64,000 nt of DNA from Nitrospira sp. Lineage in GTDB: Bacteria > Nitrospirota > Nitrospiria > Nitrospirales > Nitrospiraceae. A program made the translations under genes and the position numbers. Location: the NCBI GenBank assembly GCA_031315995.1, contig JALDRG010000003.1, positions 1 to 64,000 of the forward strand, read 5' to 3'. The notes beneath the pieces were generated by a model, which had not been told where the DNA came from, made no database searches, and saw only the letters and a program-made list of their open reading frames with translations. Shown one piece after another: positions 44,426 to 54,190 of the stretch; the stretch's first letter is position 1, and each line of letters starts with the position of its first letter.

Positions 44426-44511
44426 TTTTTGGTTCGCTCACACATTCGTGATCCGACTACCGGCGGCATGGTGGTCGGCACGGCGCTGTATTTTTTGTAG
44501 GATTGACCGGA

Positions 44512-46467
44512 GTGGCCTCACTGCAGATTCACATTACCCTTCCTGACGGAACTCGAAAACAAGTACCAGCAGGATGCACGGTCCGCGAGGCCCTCACTCC
44601 GGAGGGCGGACGCCTCGACGGCAAGGTGCTGGCAGCCAAGCTCAACGGCGCGCCGGTGGACTTGTCGCATGCATTGGAACATGACGCGACTCTCGAGCCT
44701 CTGACCTTCGCCTCGGCGGAAGGGCGAGAAGTCTATCGGCACAGCAGCACCCACATCATGGCGCAAGCCGTCAAGGAAATATTTCCCACGGCACAACTCA
44801 CGATCGGTCCGGCACTGGACGATGGGTTTTATTATGATTTCGCCTTCGACCGCCCATTCACACCTGAGGATTTAGAAAAGATCGAGGCGCGCGCCATCGA
44901 GATCACGAAACGTGGCCTGACTGTCACCCGGAGCGAGCTATCCAAGCAGGATGCCATCAAATTTTTCCAGGAACGCGGGGAAGCGTACAAGGTCGAACTG
45001 ATTAATACCTTCGACGACGCGTCCCCTATCTCGCTCTATCGCCAAGGGGAATTTGTCGACCTTTGCCGCGGGCCGCACCTTCCCACGACCGGGTATGTGG
45101 GAGCCTTCAAGCTTCTGTCCACCGGCGGCGCCTATTGGCGCGGCGACGAGCGAAACCCGATGCTGCAGCGGGTCTACGGCACGTCATTCCCGACCAAAAA
45201 AGAACTCGATGCCCATCTCGCGAAATTAGAAGAGATTAAGCGGCGGGACCATCGAAAGCTCGGCAAGGAACTCGACTTGATTACGATTCAGGACGAGATC
45301 GGTCCCGGCTTGGTTCTGTGGCATCCCAAGGGTTCACTGATCCGCCTGCTCATCGAAAACTTCTGGCGGGAACAACATATCAAGGACGGCTACGATCTGG
45401 TGTATTCCCCCCATGTCGCCAGGCTGGACCTGTGGAAAACGAGCGGTCACGTCGATTACTACCGCGAAAACATGTTCGCGTCGATGAAGCTGGAGGGCAG
45501 CGAGTACCAGCTCAAGCCGATGAACTGCCCCTTCCATATCATGATCTACAAATCCCACCTGCGCAGTTATCGGGATTTGCCGATCCGCTACGGAGAGTTG
45601 GGAACCGTCTATCGCTACGAACGAACCGGCGTGCTACACGGTTTGCTGCGTGTCCGCGGATTTACCCAGGATGACGCGCATCTGTTTTGTCGGCCCGATC
45701 AGATCGAAGCCGAAGTCAGTCGCGTGCTGGACTTTACCTTTTTTGTCCTTGGCACCTTCGGATTTACCGAGTTTGAGGTGTATCTCTCGACTCGCCCGGA
45801 AAAGTCCGTCGGCTCCGAGGAGAATTGGACGATCGCGACTAACGCCCTAGAGGCTGCGCTCAAGAGCCGCGGCGTGGCCTACGAAGTAGATCCCGGAGAA
45901 GGGGTGTTCTACGGCCCCAAAATCGATATCAAGATCAAAGACGTACTCGGTCGATCCTGGCAATGTTCAACGGTCCAGGTGGATTTCAACAATCCTGAGC
46001 GGTTCAAGCTGGCCTATACGGGCGACGACGGCAAAGCGCATCAGCCGATCATGATTCATCGGGCACTCATGGGCTCCATCGAGCGCTTCTTCGGCATCTT
46101 GATCGAGCACTATGCCGGCGCCTTCCCGACGTGGCTCGCCCCCGTGCAGGCCGCCGTACTCACGATCACGGACAATCAGCATGAATTTGCAGCGAAGATC
46201 GTCTCGACGCTCAAGAGCCACGGCTTTCGAGTCGAAGCGGACATCCGCAATGAGAAGATCGGATTTAAGATCCGTGAAGCGGAAAAGAATAAGATTCCGT
46301 ATATGCTGGTCGTGGGAGACAAGGAAGTGCAGAGCGGCATGGTGTCGGTTCGCGGCCGAAGCGGGGCGAATCATGGGACTATGCCGATCGAACACTTCCT
46401 GGAACTTCTCCGAACAGACACGAATCACACATTACGTGAAACGGTAACCCACTCACAAACGAGGTGA
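44512..46467 (+). CDS. thrS: Threonyl-tRNA synthetase
   Basis: A 651-residue class II synthetase that charges tRNA-Thr. A TGS domain (residues 1-60), an editing domain with 'HSSTHIMAQAVKEIFP' and 'VDLCRGPHLPTTG' (metal-binding editing site), the catalytic core with 'MNCPFHIMIY' (zinc-site Cys), motif 2 'GTVYRYERTGVLHGLLRVRG', and a C-terminal anticodon-binding domain are all visible. I chose GTG 44512 since AGGA lies nine bases upstream; TTG 44503 is possible. It heads the thrS-infC-rpmI-rplT block. No T-box leader was seen. Confidence 0.96.
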   Translation: MASLQIHITLPDGTRKQVPAGCTVREALTPEGGRLDGKVLAAKLNGAPVDLSHALEHDATLEPLTFASAEGREVYRHSSTHIMAQAVKEIFPTAQLTIGPALDDGFYYDFAFDRPFTPEDLEKIEARAIEITKRGLTVTRSELSKQDAIKFFQERGEAYKVELINTFDDASPISLYRQGEFVDLCRGPHLPTTGYVGAFKLLSTGGAYWRGDERNPMLQRVYGTSFPTKKELDAHLAKLEEIKRRDHRKLGKELDLITIQDEIGPGLVLWHPKGSLIRLLIENFWREQHIKDGYDLVYSPHVARLDLWKTSGHVDYYRENMFASMKLEGSEYQLKPMNCPFHIMIYKSHLRSYRDLPIRYGELGTVYRYERTGVLHGLLRVRGFTQDDAHLFCRPDQIEAEVSRVLDFTFFVLGTFGFTEFEVYLSTRPEKSVGSEENWTIATNALEAALKSRGVAYEVDPGEGVFYGPKIDIKIKDVLGRSWQCSTVQVDFNNPERFKLAYTGDDGKAHQPIMIHRALMGSIERFFGILIEHYAGAFPTWLAPVQAAVLTITDNQHEFAAKIVSTLKSHGFRVEADIRNEKIGFKIREAEKNKIPYMLVVGDKEVQSGMVSVRGRSGANHGTMPIEHFLELLRTDTNHTLRETVTHSQTR

Positions 46468-47010: not shown

Positions 47011-47208
47011 ATGAAAGTGAAAATGAAAACTCACAGCGGCGCCAAGAAACGGTTTCGACGCACGGGAACGGGGAAGCTGGTTCGCCGGAAGGCCGGAGGG
47101 CGGCATTTACTCACCGGAAAACCTCGCGACCGCAAGCGGCGCCTGAAGGGAGCCGTTGAGGTTTCCTCCGCCTCGACCACCGCGCTGAACCGTTTGCTTC
47201 CGCAATAA
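47011..47208 (+). CDS. rpmI: 50S ribosomal protein L35
   Basis: A 65-residue basic ribosomal protein. 'MKVKMKTHSGAKKRFRRTGT' is the family start, and 'RRKAGGRHLLTGKPRDRKRR' contains the conserved 'H-L-L-T-x-K' region. It belongs to the 50S subunit. It lies between infC and rplT as in most bacteria. AGGAAGGAATGAGAGC provides the ribosome site. Confidence 0.96.
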   Translation: MKVKMKTHSGAKKRFRRTGTGKLVRRKAGGRHLLTGKPRDRKRRLKGAVEVSSASTTALNRLLPQ

Positions 47209-47251: not shown

Positions 47252-47617
47252 ATGCCTCGTACAAAAGGTGGTCCAAAAACACGACAGCGGCGAAAAAAGC
47301 GCCTGAAACTGGCGAAAGGCCAGTACGGAGCCAAGAGCCGGCTGTTTCGAACAGCAACGGAATCAGTCGATAAAGGGCAGGCTTATGCCTACGTCGGACG
47401 AAAGCATCGCAAGCGCGACTTCCGCCAGCTCTGGATCGCACGCATCAGCGCCGCGACCCGCCTGCATGGCATCGCCTATAGCCGCTTCATGAATGCGCTG
47501 AAGAAAGCGAATATCTTGTTAGATCGAAAAGTGCTGTCAGATATGGCAATCCGGGATATGGCGGGATTTGAAAAACTCGTCGGGGTTGCGAAACAACAGC
47601 TCACGACTGCGAGCTAA
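47252..47617 (+). CDS. rplT: 50S ribosomal protein L20
   Basis: A 121-residue ribosomal protein that binds 23S rRNA early in 50S assembly and is known in E. coli to repress its own operon. 'MPRTKGGPKTRQRRKKRLKL' begins it, 'GQAYAYVGRKHRKRDFRQLW' is the conserved helical rRNA-binding part, and 'AIRDMAGFEKLVGVAKQQL' ends it. In many bacteria pheS follows; here the convergent pheT follows instead. Confidence 0.96.
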   Translation: MPRTKGGPKTRQRRKKRLKLAKGQYGAKSRLFRTATESVDKGQAYAYVGRKHRKRDFRQLWIARISAATRLHGIAYSRFMNALKKANILLDRKVLSDMAIRDMAGFEKLVGVAKQQLTTAS

Positions 47618-47676: not shown

Positions 47677-49395
47677 TCACACCTCACCCAACAACCGGTC
47701 GATCTCCAACTCCAGCGCGACGGCAGGCACTCCAATTTGCCAGTGCTCCAGCACCTCGGGATGCAACTCTCCCAGCAACCCAATGGCCTGACCGTTCGAC
47801 ACAATCGTCCCGGCTCGACCGTCAAGAAATGAGGGATGAGCCACCGGCTCCAACGTGAAGGGACGATCCAGGTAATACAGCAGCAGATCCAGACAGGAAT
47901 GAATTTCAGAGAAGTGGGCTCCGGCATGGGCAATCACGGCACCCAGCATCGTTACGGTCCGAGAGCCGACATCGGCACTCCTATCAGGAACAGCCACTTC
48001 CCCGACCTCGAATATGCGGTGCGGATAGAACGCTCGGCTTGAATTCGTTTCCACCTGCAGCAGCGACGGCGTGATCCACTGACGCAGGCAGGAGTAGTTG
48101 AGGGACATCACATTGTCCACCTCCACAACCTTCGCCCACTCCGTACCCTCCAGCCGCATTTTCCCGCAAAAGTCCTGCTGGGATCCCATGATATTGGAAA
48201 TGATCTCCTGGAATTCCAAGCCCACCATGAGGTGACGGACTCGATCGGCCATCTGCTCTAACCGCGACAAACCGCCTACCGTAAACTGCGAGGGCATGAC
48301 GGGTGCAAACCGTGCATATCCCTGGCTGATGGCCACATCCTCCACCACGTCGACGGTGTGAAGCAGATCGTTCCGATACGGCGGTAGCTGCACGGCCACC
48401 TTCCGCCCCGCCGACTTGACCATATAACCGTAGGACTTCAGCGCCGCAGAAACTTCCTTGGCACCGAGGGCCTCCCCTAATGCCGATTCAATGGCATCGA
48501 GCGGAATCGTTCGTGGCGCCCCGAAATCGATCGGCGTACTCCAGCGACGCCCAAAAGTGGTTTTCACCGGCGATTGAATCTCCACCGGAGAAATCACGGC
48601 ACCGCGATCCGCAAGATTGGCCGCAAAAATATTCAGGGTGAGCGCGACCATCCATAGATCGATCCCTGTCACTTCGACGAACAATTCATGATCCCCGACC
48701 TGGACCTCACCGATTTCCCGACTATTGATGATCGGAGGAAAGGACAGCACCTGTCCCTTCGCATCCCGCAACACAGGGAGCTGGTCATGGCCGCTGACAA
48801 TGTTGCCGTACTCCACGCCTTTAGGATGGACCATGAGGATCTCCCGGAGCGTCATCATTGTCTCCATGCCGAGCGGCGTGAACCGCACGTCATCCGGCTT
48901 GACCAGATCGTACGACACCGGAAACACGATAGGGGCCAACCGATACAAGCCGATCGAGACCGAGCGCCGCTTACGCCCGAAAATGTCGGCTAACTTTTCC
49001 TGTGTCTGAATGAGCTGTGTCAGTCCTGACGCCGTCACCCGATATCCCACCGCCGTACAAGCGGCCACATACGGACGAATCTTGTCGAGACCCGGCGCCA
49101 CGACCAGCTTCCCGGCAACGCGCTGCTGCTTCGTGAAGAAGGGATAGGCACTCGCCTTGCCTTGCCGCTTGATCCGAATCTGTCGCGCAATCCCCTCGCA
49201 GCACCACAAATCCGGACGATTGCTGTCCTGCAACTCGATGCGCAACTCGCCTGTGTCCGAATTGTGGCCCTTCAACTCCCCCTTCACCAACATCAACCAT
49301 TGCTCGAGTTGATCGAGCGGGATACGCGACGGCTCCTCGCCCGGTCCGGCGATCAAGGCTTCGAGATCATCTCGTTGAAGGGAAATAGTGGGCAT
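47677..49395 (-). CDS. pheT: Phenylalanyl-tRNA synthetase beta subunit, archaeal/eukaryal type
   Basis: A 572-residue beta chain of PheRS, which with PheS charges tRNA-Phe. Bacterial PheT is usually about 790-800 residues, with an N-terminal EMAP-like tRNA-binding domain and a C-terminal FDX-ACB anticodon-binding domain. Both are missing here, and the start 'MPTISLQRDDLEALI' goes straight into the archaeal/eukaryal-type B1 region. The B3/B4 editing region ('RPYVAACTAVGY', 'HPKGVEYGNIVSGHDQLPVL') and B5 ('RRWSTPIDFGAP...') are visible. It lies 12 bases after pheS and converges on rplT. It almost certainly came by lateral transfer. Confidence 0.95.
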   Translation of the reverse strand: MPTISLQRDDLEALIAGPGEEPSRIPLDQLEQWLMLVKGELKGHNSDTGELRIELQDSNRPDLWCCEGIARQIRIKRQGKASAYPFFTKQQRVAGKLVVAPGLDKIRPYVAACTAVGYRVTASGLTQLIQTQEKLADIFGRKRRSVSIGLYRLAPIVFPVSYDLVKPDDVRFTPLGMETMMTLREILMVHPKGVEYGNIVSGHDQLPVLRDAKGQVLSFPPIINSREIGEVQVGDHELFVEVTGIDLWMVALTLNIFAANLADRGAVISPVEIQSPVKTTFGRRWSTPIDFGAPRTIPLDAIESALGEALGAKEVSAALKSYGYMVKSAGRKVAVQLPPYRNDLLHTVDVVEDVAISQGYARFAPVMPSQFTVGGLSRLEQMADRVRHLMVGLEFQEIISNIMGSQQDFCGKMRLEGTEWAKVVEVDNVMSLNYSCLRQWITPSLLQVETNSSRAFYPHRIFEVGEVAVPDRSADVGSRTVTMLGAVIAHAGAHFSEIHSCLDLLLYYLDRPFTLEPVAHPSFLDGRAGTIVSNGQAIGLLGELHPEVLEHWQIGVPAVALELEIDRLLGEV

Positions 49396-49407
49396 GGTGT
49401 CGTCGTC

Positions 49408-50952
49408 CTAAAAGTTTCCCCGCATGGTGCGAATGAATTCGAGATCCGTCGAGAATAAATCGCGAATGTCGTGAATCCCCAATGCCACCATCGCCATGCG
49501 ATCGAGCCCAAGCCCCCAGGCAATGACCGGTACGGAGACACCGAGCGGTGTCGTCACTTCAGGCCGGAACAATCCGGCACCGCCCAATTCCATCCACCCC
49601 AGCTTCGGATGGCGCACATGCATTTCGACCGACGGCTCGGTGAACGGGAAATAGGCCGGAAGAAATTTCACTTCCTTGGCTTGCGCCACTTCCCGTGCAA
49701 ACAGATTGAGCAATCCGAGCAGGGTCCGGAAATTGATATCCGAACCTGCGACGATCCCTTCCACCTGGAAAAAATCGGTGGCATGGGTGGCATCTACCTG
49801 GTCATACCGAAAGCATCGGGCGATCGAGAAATATTTCCCCGGCACGGAGGCGCCGGCCGCCAACGTCCGCGCCGACACGGCGGTCCCTTGACTCCGCAAC
49901 ACCAGGCGTTTCGCGCGCTCGGCATCAAAGGTATATCCCCAACCAGTCGATCCGGCTCCTGTCCCCTGTTCATGCACCTGCATTACTTGCGTCAGATACG
50001 GCTCGGCGATCGCGGGAGCGTGGGTCGGATCTTTCACAAAATAGACATCGTGGATGTCACGAGCGGGATGAAACTGCGGCATGAACAGGGCGTCCATATT
50101 CCAGAACTCTGTTTCGACGAGGGTCCCCCGCATTTCTTGAAATCCCATGCTGACCAGCTTGAGCTTCACCAGATCCAGAAACTCTCGATAGGGATGGCGT
50201 TTCCCCGCCGCAATTCTCGGGGCCCGCAAACTGATCGTATATTTCCGAAACCGTTTCGTCCGCCATGCGCCTTCTTTCAGCAGCTCCGGCGTCAATTGCG
50301 AGACTTCCTCTGGGACCCCGTCGCATGAAAGCTGCTGCGCCACCTCCTGTCCGTCAGGAGTCAGCAGAAATGAGCGAGTCACCCGCTCATCAATCCGAAA
50401 CGGCTCGCGCGCATTTCCGCGCTTCACCGCATGTTGTTGCAGCACATTCCGAAGTGGCTCGGGAAAGGCCTGCTGCTCCCGTGGGCCGCTGCGCAACTCC
50501 TGCAACAACGCGCGCATGGCCTCGGCCGTCGCACTATTGCGACCGGTGCTTTCAATGCATCCGCCTTGAACGATTAAAATCGCGCCCTCTTTCTTGAGAG
50601 TCCCGACGGCCTTGCTCACATCAGACGGTTCGAGAGCTTCCTTGGCCTGAATGTCCTGGATCGTGAGCCGTTTCCCGGTCTGTCCGGCATCCCGCGCCGC
50701 CGATAGGACACGCTCGATCGGAGAGTACTTCTCAAAAAAGACTTCTCCGATCGTGGTCAGCGAGGCGATGTGCGCGACGGTTTCCGCATGAACGGCGATC
50801 AGCGACTTGGCCAACAGCCATTCAACGGCCATGCTCAACTGCGAGGGCTCCAAACCCGTGGATTCCGCAAGGTGATCGAGCGTCGGAGGCGAGTCAGGCT
50901 GCCGGGTCAATGCCAGCAGCACTTTGCTTTCAAGGGGATGAAGATTATCCAT
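49408..50952 (-). CDS. pheS: Phenylalanyl-tRNA synthetase alpha subunit, archaeal/eukaryal type
   Basis: A 514-residue alpha chain containing the class II catalytic core. Bacterial PheS is about 330-350 residues with an N-terminal coiled coil. This one has three winged-helix-like segments in residues 1-210 ('TLDHLAESTGLEPSQLSMAV', 'LTIQDIQAKEALEPSDVSKA'), the DNA-binding-fold domains seen in archaeal and eukaryotic PheS. The core begins near 'HPYREFLDLVKLKLVSMGFQ'; motif 2 includes 'YFSIARCFRYDQVDATHATD' and motif 3 is 'IAWGLGLDRMAMV'. I chose ATG 50952; a TTG at 50958 is possible. It starts 28 bases after rpe. Confidence 0.95.
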   Translation of the reverse strand: MDNLHPLESKVLLALTRQPDSPPTLDHLAESTGLEPSQLSMAVEWLLAKSLIAVHAETVAHIASLTTIGEVFFEKYSPIERVLSAARDAGQTGKRLTIQDIQAKEALEPSDVSKAVGTLKKEGAILIVQGGCIESTGRNSATAEAMRALLQELRSGPREQQAFPEPLRNVLQQHAVKRGNAREPFRIDERVTRSFLLTPDGQEVAQQLSCDGVPEEVSQLTPELLKEGAWRTKRFRKYTISLRAPRIAAGKRHPYREFLDLVKLKLVSMGFQEMRGTLVETEFWNMDALFMPQFHPARDIHDVYFVKDPTHAPAIAEPYLTQVMQVHEQGTGAGSTGWGYTFDAERAKRLVLRSQGTAVSARTLAAGASVPGKYFSIARCFRYDQVDATHATDFFQVEGIVAGSDINFRTLLGLLNLFAREVAQAKEVKFLPAYFPFTEPSVEMHVRHPKLGWMELGGAGLFRPEVTTPLGVSVPVIAWGLGLDRMAMVALGIHDIRDLFSTDLEFIRTMRGNF

Positions 50953-50979
50953 GAACAAGGGTGCGGTCTGACGCCTCTT

Positions 50980-51687
50980 CTATCGCTGTGCAGCCGCAAT
51001 TCTGCTGATGCGGGCGGCAGGCTGATGCCCGGCTCTCAACGCCGTAATAGCCGCCGCATAGTCATGGCTTGAAAATACGGCCGATCCTGCGACGAGTACC
51101 TCGGCGCCAGCCGCGAGAATCTCCTTCACATTGTCCGGCTTCACACCCCCATCCACTTCCAGGAGCGCTCGGCTCTGCGTACGATCGATCAAGGTCCGGA
51201 CCTCAGCAATCTTCTGTAACGACGAAGGAATAAACTGTTGCCCGCCGAATCCAGGGTTCACGGACATGACGAGAATGAGATCCGCGTCCCGAACGATTTC
51301 CGACAGGGTACCGACCGGCGTAGCAGGGTTCAACGTCACCCCCGCCTTCACGCCCCGCTCTTTGATCGACTGAACGGTCCGATGCAGGTGCGGACAGGTC
51401 TCCACATGCACGGTGAGAGAATCGGCGCCCGCCTCGGCGAATTCTTGGATGAAGGCATCCGGATTCGTCATCATCAGATGCACATCCAACGGCAAGGTGG
51501 TGACTTTTCGCAAGGCTTCGACGATCGGAGGCCCCACGGTCAAATTCGGCACAAAGTGGCCGTCCATCACATCGATGTGCAACCAGTCAGCTCCTGCTTC
51601 CTCAACCCGCGCCACCTCATCCGCCAGGCGGGCAAAGTCAGCCGACAGAATGGAGGGCGCGATACGAATGGTCCGGCCGGTGGTCAT
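50980..51687 (-). CDS. rpe: Ribulose-phosphate 3-epimerase
   Basis: A 235-residue TIM-barrel enzyme interconverting ribulose-5-phosphate and xylulose-5-phosphate in the pentose phosphate pathway and Calvin cycle. Motifs are 'APSILSADFARLADEV', 'LHIDVMDGHFVPNLTVGP' (metal ligands and catalytic Asp), 'DVHLMMTNPDAFI', 'MSVNPGFGGQQFIP' and 'LLEVDGGVKPDN' (second catalytic Asp). The ATG at 51687 follows GCGGAGGAC and overlaps the rsmB stop as ATGA. It sits between translation genes with no obvious functional link. Confidence 0.96.
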   Translation of the reverse strand: MTTGRTIRIAPSILSADFARLADEVARVEEAGADWLHIDVMDGHFVPNLTVGPPIVEALRKVTTLPLDVHLMMTNPDAFIQEFAEAGADSLTVHVETCPHLHRTVQSIKERGVKAGVTLNPATPVGTLSEIVRDADLILVMSVNPGFGGQQFIPSSLQKIAEVRTLIDRTQSRALLEVDGGVKPDNVKEILAAGAEVLVAGSAVFSSHDYAAAITALRAGHQPAARISRIAAAQR

Positions 51688-53126
51688 TCTGTCCTCCGCA
51701 GGCGGGCGGCAAAGAAGCAATCCATGTTGTTCATATTGGTCATCGTAGAAAGGTCCCCTCGGGGGGTCACGAATGGGACACCGGCTGGGGGTAACCAGGG
51801 CGCGATCGACTCACGCAGAAAGCCACGATGTGACTGACAAAACTCATCAATGATTGATTCGGTTTCTTCCGGCTCAATCGAGCAGGTACTATAGACCAAC
51901 ACCCCACCAGGCCGCAAGAGACGGCTCGTCGCGGTCAGCAATTCCATCTGCACCTGCCGGTGCTGCACGATCGACTCCGGCGCTTTATACCACTTGCCTT
52001 CCGGATGACGCCGCAACACGCCGAGGCCGCTGCAGGGGGCATCCAAAAGAATACGGTCGAACGGTCGAGACAGCGCCGGATAGGGCACAGCAGCGCTCAC
52101 GCCCTGTCCTCCAGACACCGGCACTGAACCGATCAGCGCGCGCACGTCACCAGCCAGCGTCGTCAGTACATCCACTCCGAGACGGCGACAATTGGCCATC
52201 ACAAGATCAAGCCGAGCTGAGGTCCGGTCCACCGCGACGATCTCTCCTCGATTCTCCATGAGGGCCGCCAAATGCGTGGCCTTCCCTCCCGGCGCGGCAC
52301 AGGCATCCAACACCCGTTGACCTGGCCGGACATCCAGCAGCAACGGAACAAGTTGCCCGGCCTCATCCTCCACGTAAAACCGTCCCTCGGCGAATCCCGG
52401 CAGGTCTGCGACGGAGCCGGGGCGGGCCAATTGAATGCCGACCTCGCTGACTAACGTCGGGCCGGCGTCCACCTGCGCCTCCGCCAAGTCGGCCAGCAGC
52501 GTCGCGCGCGATGTTCGCAGCGTATTCACCCGTAGCGTGAGCGGCGGCACCTCTACTGACGCTCGGCAGAGGGCCTCGGCGCGCTCGTCGCCCCAGGTAC
52601 GACACCAGCGCTCCACGAGCCAGGTCGGACAGGAATAGCGCACGGCAAAGGCCTCGACAGGATTGTTGGCGGCATCGGGCCAGGCCGGTTCGGAGGATCT
52701 GAGGAGGGCCCTGAGCACCGCATTCACGAACCCGCTCCAATCCCGTCCCAGACGCCGACTCTGCTGCTTGATCATCCGCACAGACTCGTTCACGGCCGCG
52801 GAATCGGGCACCCTGTCTAAGTACAGGACTTGGTAAGCGCCGAGACGCAAACTGGTCTGGACCAGGATGGGAAGTTTCGCGATCCGCCGATCCGACAGCA
52901 AGCCCAATCGCCAGTCGAGAGTCGCACGATACCGCAAGACCCCGCGCACGAGTTCCACCATGAAGGCCCGATCTCGCAAATCCAAGGCGTCACGGGAAGA
53001 CACCTGATTGAAGAGGTCATCCCCCAGCAGACCCGCCTTGTCGATCGCCAGCAACGCCTTCACGGCCGCGCGACGCCCTGGAGAAGCAGTCCCGACAGCA
53101 TGTGATGGCTGCTGATCAGACGCCAT
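51684..53126 (-). CDS. rsmB: 16S rRNA (cytosine-967-C5)-methyltransferase
   Basis: A 480-residue enzyme making m5C967 in 16S rRNA. Residues 15-160 are the NusB-like N-terminal domain ('LGAYQVLYLDRVPDSAAVNE'). The methyltransferase domain shows 'VLDACAAPGGKATHLAALM' (SAM motif I), 'LLDAPCSGLGVLRRHPE' (first Cys region) and 'LVYSTCSIEPEE' (catalytic Cys motif VI). The length is a little above E. coli RsmB. It overlaps rpe by four bases and follows fmt by 61 bases, the same fmt-rsmB order found in E. coli. Confidence 0.96.
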   Translation of the reverse strand: MASDQQPSHAVGTASPGRRAAVKALLAIDKAGLLGDDLFNQVSSRDALDLRDRAFMVELVRGVLRYRATLDWRLGLLSDRRIAKLPILVQTSLRLGAYQVLYLDRVPDSAAVNESVRMIKQQSRRLGRDWSGFVNAVLRALLRSSEPAWPDAANNPVEAFAVRYSCPTWLVERWCRTWGDERAEALCRASVEVPPLTLRVNTLRTSRATLLADLAEAQVDAGPTLVSEVGIQLARPGSVADLPGFAEGRFYVEDEAGQLVPLLLDVRPGQRVLDACAAPGGKATHLAALMENRGEIVAVDRTSARLDLVMANCRRLGVDVLTTLAGDVRALIGSVPVSGGQGVSAAVPYPALSRPFDRILLDAPCSGLGVLRRHPEGKWYKAPESIVQHRQVQMELLTATSRLLRPGGVLVYSTCSIEPEETESIIDEFCQSHRGFLRESIAPWLPPAGVPFVTPRGDLSTMTNMNNMDCFFAARLRRTE

Positions 53127-53187: not shown

Positions 53188-54138
53188 TCAGCCCTGTGAG
53201 GAAGAAATCGTTTGCAGGCTGATGCCTTCGGCCAGGCGATGGCCGGCCAGATACTGCGCCATCGTCATACGTCGACTATTGGAAGGCTGGATATCGACGA
53301 TGTGGATCGTCCCGCCGCCGGTCGCCACATCGACCCGGTCTTTCGTCACCTTCGTCACGGTTCCGGGAGCCGCATTCTGAGCCTCATCACCCGATGTCAC
53401 ACGCCACAGTATCCAACGCTCGCCGTTCACATAGGTGTATGCGCCTGGCCATGGGGAGAGTCCACGCACCCGATTCACAATTTCCACGGCCGTCAACGTC
53501 CAATCGACTACACCGTCTTCTTTTTTCAACATCGGCGCCATGGTCGCTTGCGCATGATCCTGCGGTTGAGGAGTGAGCGTCCCTTCCCTCAGACGGCGGA
53601 GGGTCTCAACCAATAACCGCCCGCCCACCTCCGCCAGTCGAGGCGCCAGCGTGCCGGCAGTATCATCGGGCTGGATCGCTACCTTCTCCTGCAGCAGCAT
53701 GTCGCCGGTATCCATGCCTTCTGCCATAAACATGGTCGTGATGCCGGTTTCCCGTTCCCCCCTGATAATAGCCCATTGGATGGGACCTGCTCCACGGTAC
53801 TTCGGCAAGAGCGACCCATGCACATTGATACAGCCACGAGACGGCAATGTCAGAATCGCCGGAGGGAGAATGCGGCCATATGCGGTGACCGCAATGACCT
53901 CGGGCTCCCATTGTCGCAACGCGTCTAGAAAGACCGGGTCCTTCATCTTGAGGGGCTGGAGGACGGGAATCCCCTCGCGCTGGCAGACGGCTTTCACGGG
54001 AGACCAGACCACTTCCTGGCCACGACCCTTCGGCCGGTCGGGCTGAGTCACCACACCGACCACTTCATCCTTCGACTTGAGCAACGCCTCCAGAGATGGT
54101 ACGGCGAAGTCAGGCGTCCCCATGAATACGATGCGCAT
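53188..54138 (-). CDS. fmt: Methionyl-tRNA formyltransferase
   Basis: A 316-residue enzyme that formylates initiator Met-tRNA using 10-formyl-THF. 'MRIVFMGTPDFAVPSLEALL' starts it, 'INVHGSLLPKYRGAGPIQWA' is the conserved catalytic region with the His and Asn, and 'MDTGDMLLQE' completes the active site. The C-terminal OB-fold binds tRNA ('VRGLSPWPGAYTY'). The ATG at 54138 is chosen over a GTG two codons earlier. It is divergent from the tRNA-fMet gene (54226) with only 87 bases between them. def is not adjacent. Confidence 0.96.
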   Translation of the reverse strand: MRIVFMGTPDFAVPSLEALLKSKDEVVGVVTQPDRPKGRGQEVVWSPVKAVCQREGIPVLQPLKMKDPVFLDALRQWEPEVIAVTAYGRILPPAILTLPSRGCINVHGSLLPKYRGAGPIQWAIIRGERETGITTMFMAEGMDTGDMLLQEKVAIQPDDTAGTLAPRLAEVGGRLLVETLRRLREGTLTPQPQDHAQATMAPMLKKEDGVVDWTLTAVEIVNRVRGLSPWPGAYTYVNGERWILWRVTSGDEAQNAAPGTVTKVTKDRVDVATGGGTIHIVDIQPSNSRRMTMAQYLAGHRLAEGISLQTISSSQG

Positions 54139-54190
54139 GCGCACGCTTTATCATTCTCCTCATCCGAATGCAATTCTCCCAGTCCGTTCC

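Follow-up and report, generated by a model that had tools for sequence, protein, structure and literature searches.

The 64,000-nucleotide stretch of Nitrospira sp. DNA analyzed here (henceforth the window) carries two adjacent genes, pheT and pheS, for the beta and alpha chains of a phenylalanyl-tRNA synthetase (PheRS) of the archaeal/eukaryotic type (PheRS-A) rather than the bacterial type (PheRS-B). This pair is very probably the sole housekeeping PheRS of its host, laterally acquired by an ancestor of the class Nitrospiria and its neighboring lineages, in which it replaced the native pair at the site downstream of rplT. The original prediction, made from the letters of the window, had proposed a lateral replacement of the native synthetase at this locus. 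The transfer is upheld by the domains of both proteins, by their trees, and by the lack of a second pheST; its scale, however, has to be revised, as the event is ancient and class-wide and not specific to the locus.

A complete archaeal/eukaryotic-type PheRS

PheT matches the NCBIfam profile pheT_arch (TIGR00471; curated cutoff, 282.65) over its full length (467.4 bits, residues 1-569), and reaches only 105 bits against pheT_bact (TIGR00472; cutoff, 402.65), in a match confined to the C-terminal half shared by the two types. PheS scores 579 bits over residues 4-514 against the archaeal PheS equivalog profile NF003210 (cutoff, 350). In terms of architecture, PheT comprises B1, B3/4 editing, B5, and catalytic-like modules. 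The Pfam search recovered the B5 and CLM domains and, weakly, B1; at E <= 1 it found neither FDX-ACB (PF03147) nor tRNA_bind/EMAP (PF01588), both of which are present in a bacterial PheT used as a control (L086). PheS consists of an N-terminal winged-helix region followed by the class II catalytic core. The core was recovered by Pfam, the winged-helix matches (residues 6-56 and 96-130) are weak and fall under the Pfam cutoffs, and the structural model predicts helix-helix-helix-strand units in the same region.

The AlphaFold models of the two chains (mean pLDDT of 87 for PheT and 81.5 for PheS) have human cytosolic PheRS as their best or near-best match in the PDB. For PheS, the top match is the human alpha chain (3l4g_C) over 518 columns, with a poor global superposition (root mean square deviation, 18.9 A). 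The N-terminal part of PheT superimposes on the Pyrococcus horikoshii PheT fragment 2cxi with a TM score of 0.93 on the target and a deviation of 2.3 A. The window pair is thus confirmed as a complete PheRS-A, and a PheRS-B identity is excluded by the subthreshold pheT_bact score and the lack of FDX-ACB. The domain search thereby bears out the original description of a PheT devoid of the EMAP-like and FDX-ACB domains of bacterial PheT and a PheS with N-terminal winged helices.

The PheT editing pocket appears to be conserved as well. The window PheT and all 49 Nitrospirota PheT sequences compared share Q126, S211, P213, P214, N217, T236, and G237 with Pyrococcus PheT, and 48 of the 49 also share L202; the position of D234 is a glutamate in all 49, as it is in the human protein. 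We take these positions to include the editing-pocket residues known from the work on 2cxi, and their retention suggests that the acquired enzyme is capable of editing. In PheS, the motif 2 region reads FRYD..DATHATDFFQ in the window as against FRNE..DATHLAEFHQ in the human enzyme. For the segment corresponding to FRxE...FHQ, most Nitrospirota have FRYD...DFFQ; families f11 and f17 and part of f18 combine FRYE with either DFFQ or DFYQ (family labels as in the survey below).

Copy number and distribution in Nitrospirota

The genome of the window is a draft of 3.88 Mb in 37 contigs (93.6% complete), with the window lying on a contig of 322 kb. It has a single PheS-family gene; a second, borderline match to PF01409 was considered as an extra PheS and is HisRS by its sequence. 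No protein of this genome reaches the TIGR00472 cutoff, so that the genome-wide search returned no bacterial-type pheST. The pattern extends to the 198 Nitrospirota genomes surveyed, which we grouped into families f1 to f32, with f1 to f9 (65 genomes) constituting the class of the window, Nitrospiria. The archaeal PheT cutoff is exceeded in 116 genomes and the bacterial cutoff in 73, and a comparison of the two lists found no genome among the 198 that exceeds both. Archaeal-type PheT is present in 65 of 65 genomes of the class and, outside it, in f10, f11, f14, f17, and f18, the last of which presumably represents Leptospirillum. The bacterial-type families are f12, f13, f15, f16, and f19 to f32 (f22 from a partial match only). 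Archaeal-type PheRS is therefore a trait of the whole class and several neighboring families, not a peculiarity of the window locus.

The bacterial-type PheT proteins of the phylum themselves come in two forms. Those of the sister class (f13, f16, and f19 to f32; e.g., L096:7272-9347) are about 690 amino acids (aa) long and lack the EMAP/tRNA_bind region, their profile match beginning near position 156 of 798; those of f12 and f15 are full-length proteins of about 803 aa that include EMAP. Because EMAP is also absent from the sister-class bacterial-type PheT, the diagnostic features in Nitrospirota are the absence of FDX-ACB and the profile scores, not the absence of EMAP.

The genomic site of the replacement

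The gene neighborhoods, read within at most 18 kb around each sampled locus, place the exchange at a particular site. Most bacterial-type families (f13, f15, f16, f19, f20, f23 to f26, and f28 to f32) have rplT-pheS-pheT on one strand, usually preceded by thrS-infC-rpmI, which agrees with the arrangement that the original prediction had attributed to many bacteria. In f1, f2, f3, f7, f8, f11, f17, and f18, the archaeal-type pheT-pheS pair is instead convergent with thrS-infC-rpmI-rplT, with no gene or a few genes separating the two. In the window's class, the order rsmB-rpe-pheS-pheT is preserved at most loci, and rpe-rsmB-fmt usually lie beyond pheS. Since most bacterial-type relatives sampled keep pheST after rplT, and the convergent archaeal-type pair abuts rplT in the window and many archaeal-type relatives, the data support the view that the latter pair took the ancestral pheST site, in line with the earlier proposal of a replacement at or near that site.

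Phylogeny and donor

In the PheS core trees, all archaeal-type Nitrospirota sequences form one clade (support of 100), and a long starred branch (support of 100) sets it apart from the bacterial PheS found elsewhere in the phylum, the two groups being about 2.9 changes per site distant from each other. Those of PheT likewise form one clade (100), which is joined by the P. horikoshii PheT fragment with a support of 98.9 to 100. In PheS, the starred split thus groups the Nitrospirota enzyme with archaeal sequences, away from bacterial PheRS, and the phylogeny supports the transfer. The donor would be an archaeon, probably a relative of the Thermococcales, to judge from trees in which this order is represented by a single PheT fragment of 348 residues. 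A virus-borne source found no backing, as no relative turned up among the viral contigs searched with PheS and PheT patterns. Plasmid records gave only matches of less than 60% identity covering at most about 63% of PheS, as expected of bacterial PheS.

Archaeal-type PheRS in other bacteria

A scan of named genomes for archaeal-type PheS returned, among its best 80 matches, 14 bacterial records. These belong to Planctomycetota (including Thalassoglobus neptunius strain KOR42), Gemmatimonadota, Myxococcota, and WOR-3, the remainder being an unassigned bin, a bin called Actinomycetes, and an Aminicenantes bin. None of the 14 genomes has a bacterial PheT over the cutoff. Thirteen of them form a clade of their own (100; L122, L124, L125, L126, L130, L131, L133, L137, L144, L147, L154, L193, and L194). 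The Aminicenantes PheS (L150, genome G208) nests in Woesearchaeota (96), and its PheT falls among the same archaea of the DPANN group. This pheS-pheT pair may reflect either a transfer or a mis-binned contig; a binning error may be suspected because the genome measures 1.1 Mb and all of its rpoB matches are broken.

tRNA-Phe remained bacterial

The cognate tRNA did not follow the enzyme. A tRNA-Phe pattern with TGAAAATC missed many genomes, in which the loop continues TGAAAAG, and a looser pattern was used. The window genome's own tRNA-Phe was not matched by it, and a genome of the same genus was read in its place. Position 20 is U in 8 and C in 2 of 10 Nitrospirota genomes with archaeal-type PheRS, and U in all 11 with the bacterial type; the other bacteria with archaeal-type PheRS have U20 in 9 of 9 readable tRNAs, and archaea have G20 in 6 of 6. 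Excluded from these counts are the Thalassoglobus match and one from Woesearchaeota, in which the D arm is non-canonical. According to a review, G34, A35, A36, and A73 are identity elements common to all, to which yeast and Aeropyrum pernix add G20 and Escherichia coli adds U20 (PMC9976931). Thus, the enzyme was exchanged while tRNA-Phe stayed bacterial, and the acquired PheRS would tolerate U20.

Remodeling of the tRNA in step with the enzyme type was considered and rejected: the anticodon stem has C27-G43 in f1 and f2 (L242, L245, and L246) in place of the G27-C43 of most relatives, but the same flip occurs in a bacterial-type genome of f28 (G113). The Thalassoglobus neptunius match (L387), present as two copies on one contig, has no canonical D arm 5' of AGAGC and may represent a tRNA gene that is unusual or interrupted.

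A scenario for the exchange and its alternatives

We propose that an archaeal pheS-pheT pair entered an ancestor of Nitrospiria and several neighboring lineages by lateral transfer. It would have landed beside rsmB-rpe, in the opposite orientation, at the position that the native pheST occupied downstream of rplT, and the latter would have been lost, either before or after the insertion. Later rearrangement would have moved the pair in some families. The acquired enzyme is predicted to be an (alpha-beta)2 tetramer that retains its editing pocket and charges the unchanged bacterial tRNA-Phe. The GAA anticodon and A73 would be its main recognition elements, because the tRNA-Phe of its bacterial hosts has U20 or C20 where archaea have the identity base G20.

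The most economical account posits one acquisition, postdating the split from the Thermodesulfovibrio-like class, but several observations weigh against a simple history. The archaeal-type pair lies elsewhere in f5, f6, f10, and f14, where no pheST follows rplT; the site is not universal even in the bacterial-type families, as f12 too has pheST away from rplT. The donor is uncertain given the short Thermococcales fragment, and the Nitrospirota PheS stem is long (about one change per site) and has no supported sister. The rooted RpoB tree unites the archaeal-type families with full support (100) except for f14, which shares with f12, f15, and f16 a fork that the tree does not resolve, and this placement leaves a single gain with vertical descent unproven. 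It is accordingly quite conceivable, if not what we favor, that one ancestral gain was followed by a secondary transfer from an f17-like lineage to f14, and perhaps to others: both chains of f14 group with those of f17 (88 in either case), and the f14 pair is one of those away from rplT. Yet approximately unbiased (AU) tests reject neither an RpoB clade of all archaeal-type families including f14 (p-AU 0.218) nor, in PheRS trees with fewer sequences under LG+G, f14 as the outside branch (p-AU 0.728). As a separate observation on RpoB, three f18 frames (L344, L345, and L348; about 1724 to 1733 aa) contain about 400 extra residues between profile positions of about 223 and 272, which the other Nitrospirota rpoB frames examined do not have.

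The opposite polarity, in which Nitrospirota started out with the archaeal type and a bacterial pheST was regained by the Thermodesulfovibrio-like class, seems improbable. The two forms of bacterial-type PheT could suggest separate gains, but the rplT-pheS-pheT arrangement of most bacterial-type families is what vertical retention predicts, and the rooted RpoB tree puts such families on both sides of its deepest split. An artefact of binning or assembly, for which one might point to the fragmented draft, can be practically dismissed given the presence of the gene in every sampled genome of the class, single-contig ones included, the context shared by the sampled loci, and the length of the window's contig. 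The relation to the other bacterial cases bears on how often such exchanges happened. Members of the Spirochaetaceae (Spirochaeta, Borrelia, and Treponema) have an archaeal-type PheRS with a Thermococcales-like affinity (Andam and Gogarten 2011, PMC3191353). As the Nitrospirota enzyme is also closest to Thermococcales in the present PheT trees, a single archaeal-to-bacterial transfer could have been followed by exchange between Nitrospirota, Spirochaetaceae, and possibly other phyla; PheS taken alone allows a clade of Nitrospirota and the Planctomycetota/Gemmatimonadota/Myxococcota group (p-AU 0.521). We regard this as rather unlikely, since PheT rejects that clade (p-AU 0.011) and PheS rejects the inclusion of the Aminicenantes bin in it (p ~2e-15). 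Together, these rejections indicate that bacteria acquired the enzyme no fewer than two, and probably three, separate times in the present data, besides the published Spirochaetaceae case.

The preferred reading of a clean cross-domain replacement at the native site has implications for both systematics and tRNA biology. PheRS being essential, such an exchange would be useful as a shared derived character for the tree of Nitrospirota, in which the class concerned is that of Nitrospira, the nitrite oxidizers and comammox bacteria. The coevolution of tRNA identity also becomes directly testable, as nature offers several instances in which a synthetase of the archaeal type works with a bacterial tRNA without G20. 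More speculatively, at least three lineages (Nitrospirota; Planctomycetota/Gemmatimonadota/Myxococcota/WOR-3; and Spirochaetaceae) might have exchanged the enzyme independently without remodeling the tRNA, the enzyme being retuned from G20 to U20/C20. We advance this tentatively, as an idea that may well fail. Were it correct, these lineages would amount to natural repeat experiments in the cross-domain exchange of an essential synthetase, and convergent changes would be predicted on the surface contacting the tRNA elbow.

The window locus

The gene order agrees with the original prediction, a plus-strand block ending in rplT facing a minus-strand block of five genes, and both PheRS reading frames have the coordinates and lengths first proposed for them (Table 1). 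A TTG at 50958, two codons 5' of the pheS ATG, is an alternative start that would give a PheS of 516 aa. On the minus strand, fmt and rsmB are 61 nt apart, rsmB and rpe overlap by 37, rpe and pheS (from its ATG) are 27 nt apart, and pheS and pheT 12 nt apart; because of this spacing, the five genes are probably cotranscribed, as had been suggested.

Table 1. Genes of the PheRS locus in the window
Gene	Product or remark	Coordinates	Strand	Basis
thrS		44503..46467	+	
infC	True start possibly further upstream, at an unlisted codon	46612..46977	+	
rpmI		47011..47208	+	
rplT	Final gene of the plus-strand block	47252..47617	+	
pheT	Archaeal/eukaryotic-type PheRS beta chain, 572 aa	47677..49395	-	Open reading frame, profiles, model
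pheS	Archaeal/eukaryotic-type PheRS alpha chain, 514 aa (ATG at 50952)	49408..50952	-	
rpe	Ribulose-phosphate 3-epimerase, upstream of pheS in the minus-strand block; synteny marker	50980..51720	-	Name from the original prediction and the sequence
rsmB	Minus-strand block	51684..53126	-	
fmt	Minus-strand block	53188..54144	-	

Comparison with known systems

Our literature search found no report of archaeal-type PheRS in Nitrospirota, although an earlier one is possible, as a large survey of aminoacyl-tRNA synthetases in Nucleic Acids Research (gkw1182) lay outside the search; the main text of the Spirochaetaceae study (PMC3191353) mentions neither Nitrospira nor Leptospirillum. The latter study provides the closest parallel, and bears out the original prediction, which had named spirochetes as a precedent. 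In both cases, some members of a phylum have two archaeal-type subunits in place of the bacterial enzyme, with a Thermococcales-like affinity, and the sizes are similar (alpha, 513-528 aa, and beta, 514-573 aa, in Spirochaetaceae versus 514 and 572 aa in the window; PMC3191353). The Nitrospirota case differs in that it lies in a different phylum and spans a wide range of families, and in that the pair occupies, in many genomes, the place where bacterial pheST used to be. Cross-domain replacement of PheRS is thus a known kind of event, to which Nitrospirota add a further case.

With the PheRS-A reference enzymes (human FARSA/FARSB, 3l4g; P. horikoshii PheT, 2cxi), the window pair shares its domain architecture, profile membership, fold, and editing-pocket residues; unlike them, it has a bacterial host, a tRNA-Phe with U20 or C20 in place of G20, and a different motif 2. 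With the PheRS-B of the sister Nitrospirota families, on the other hand, it has in common its function and, in most families sampled, its site downstream of rplT, yet it belongs to a different family, lies in the opposite orientation, and lacks the FDX-ACB domain that they possess.

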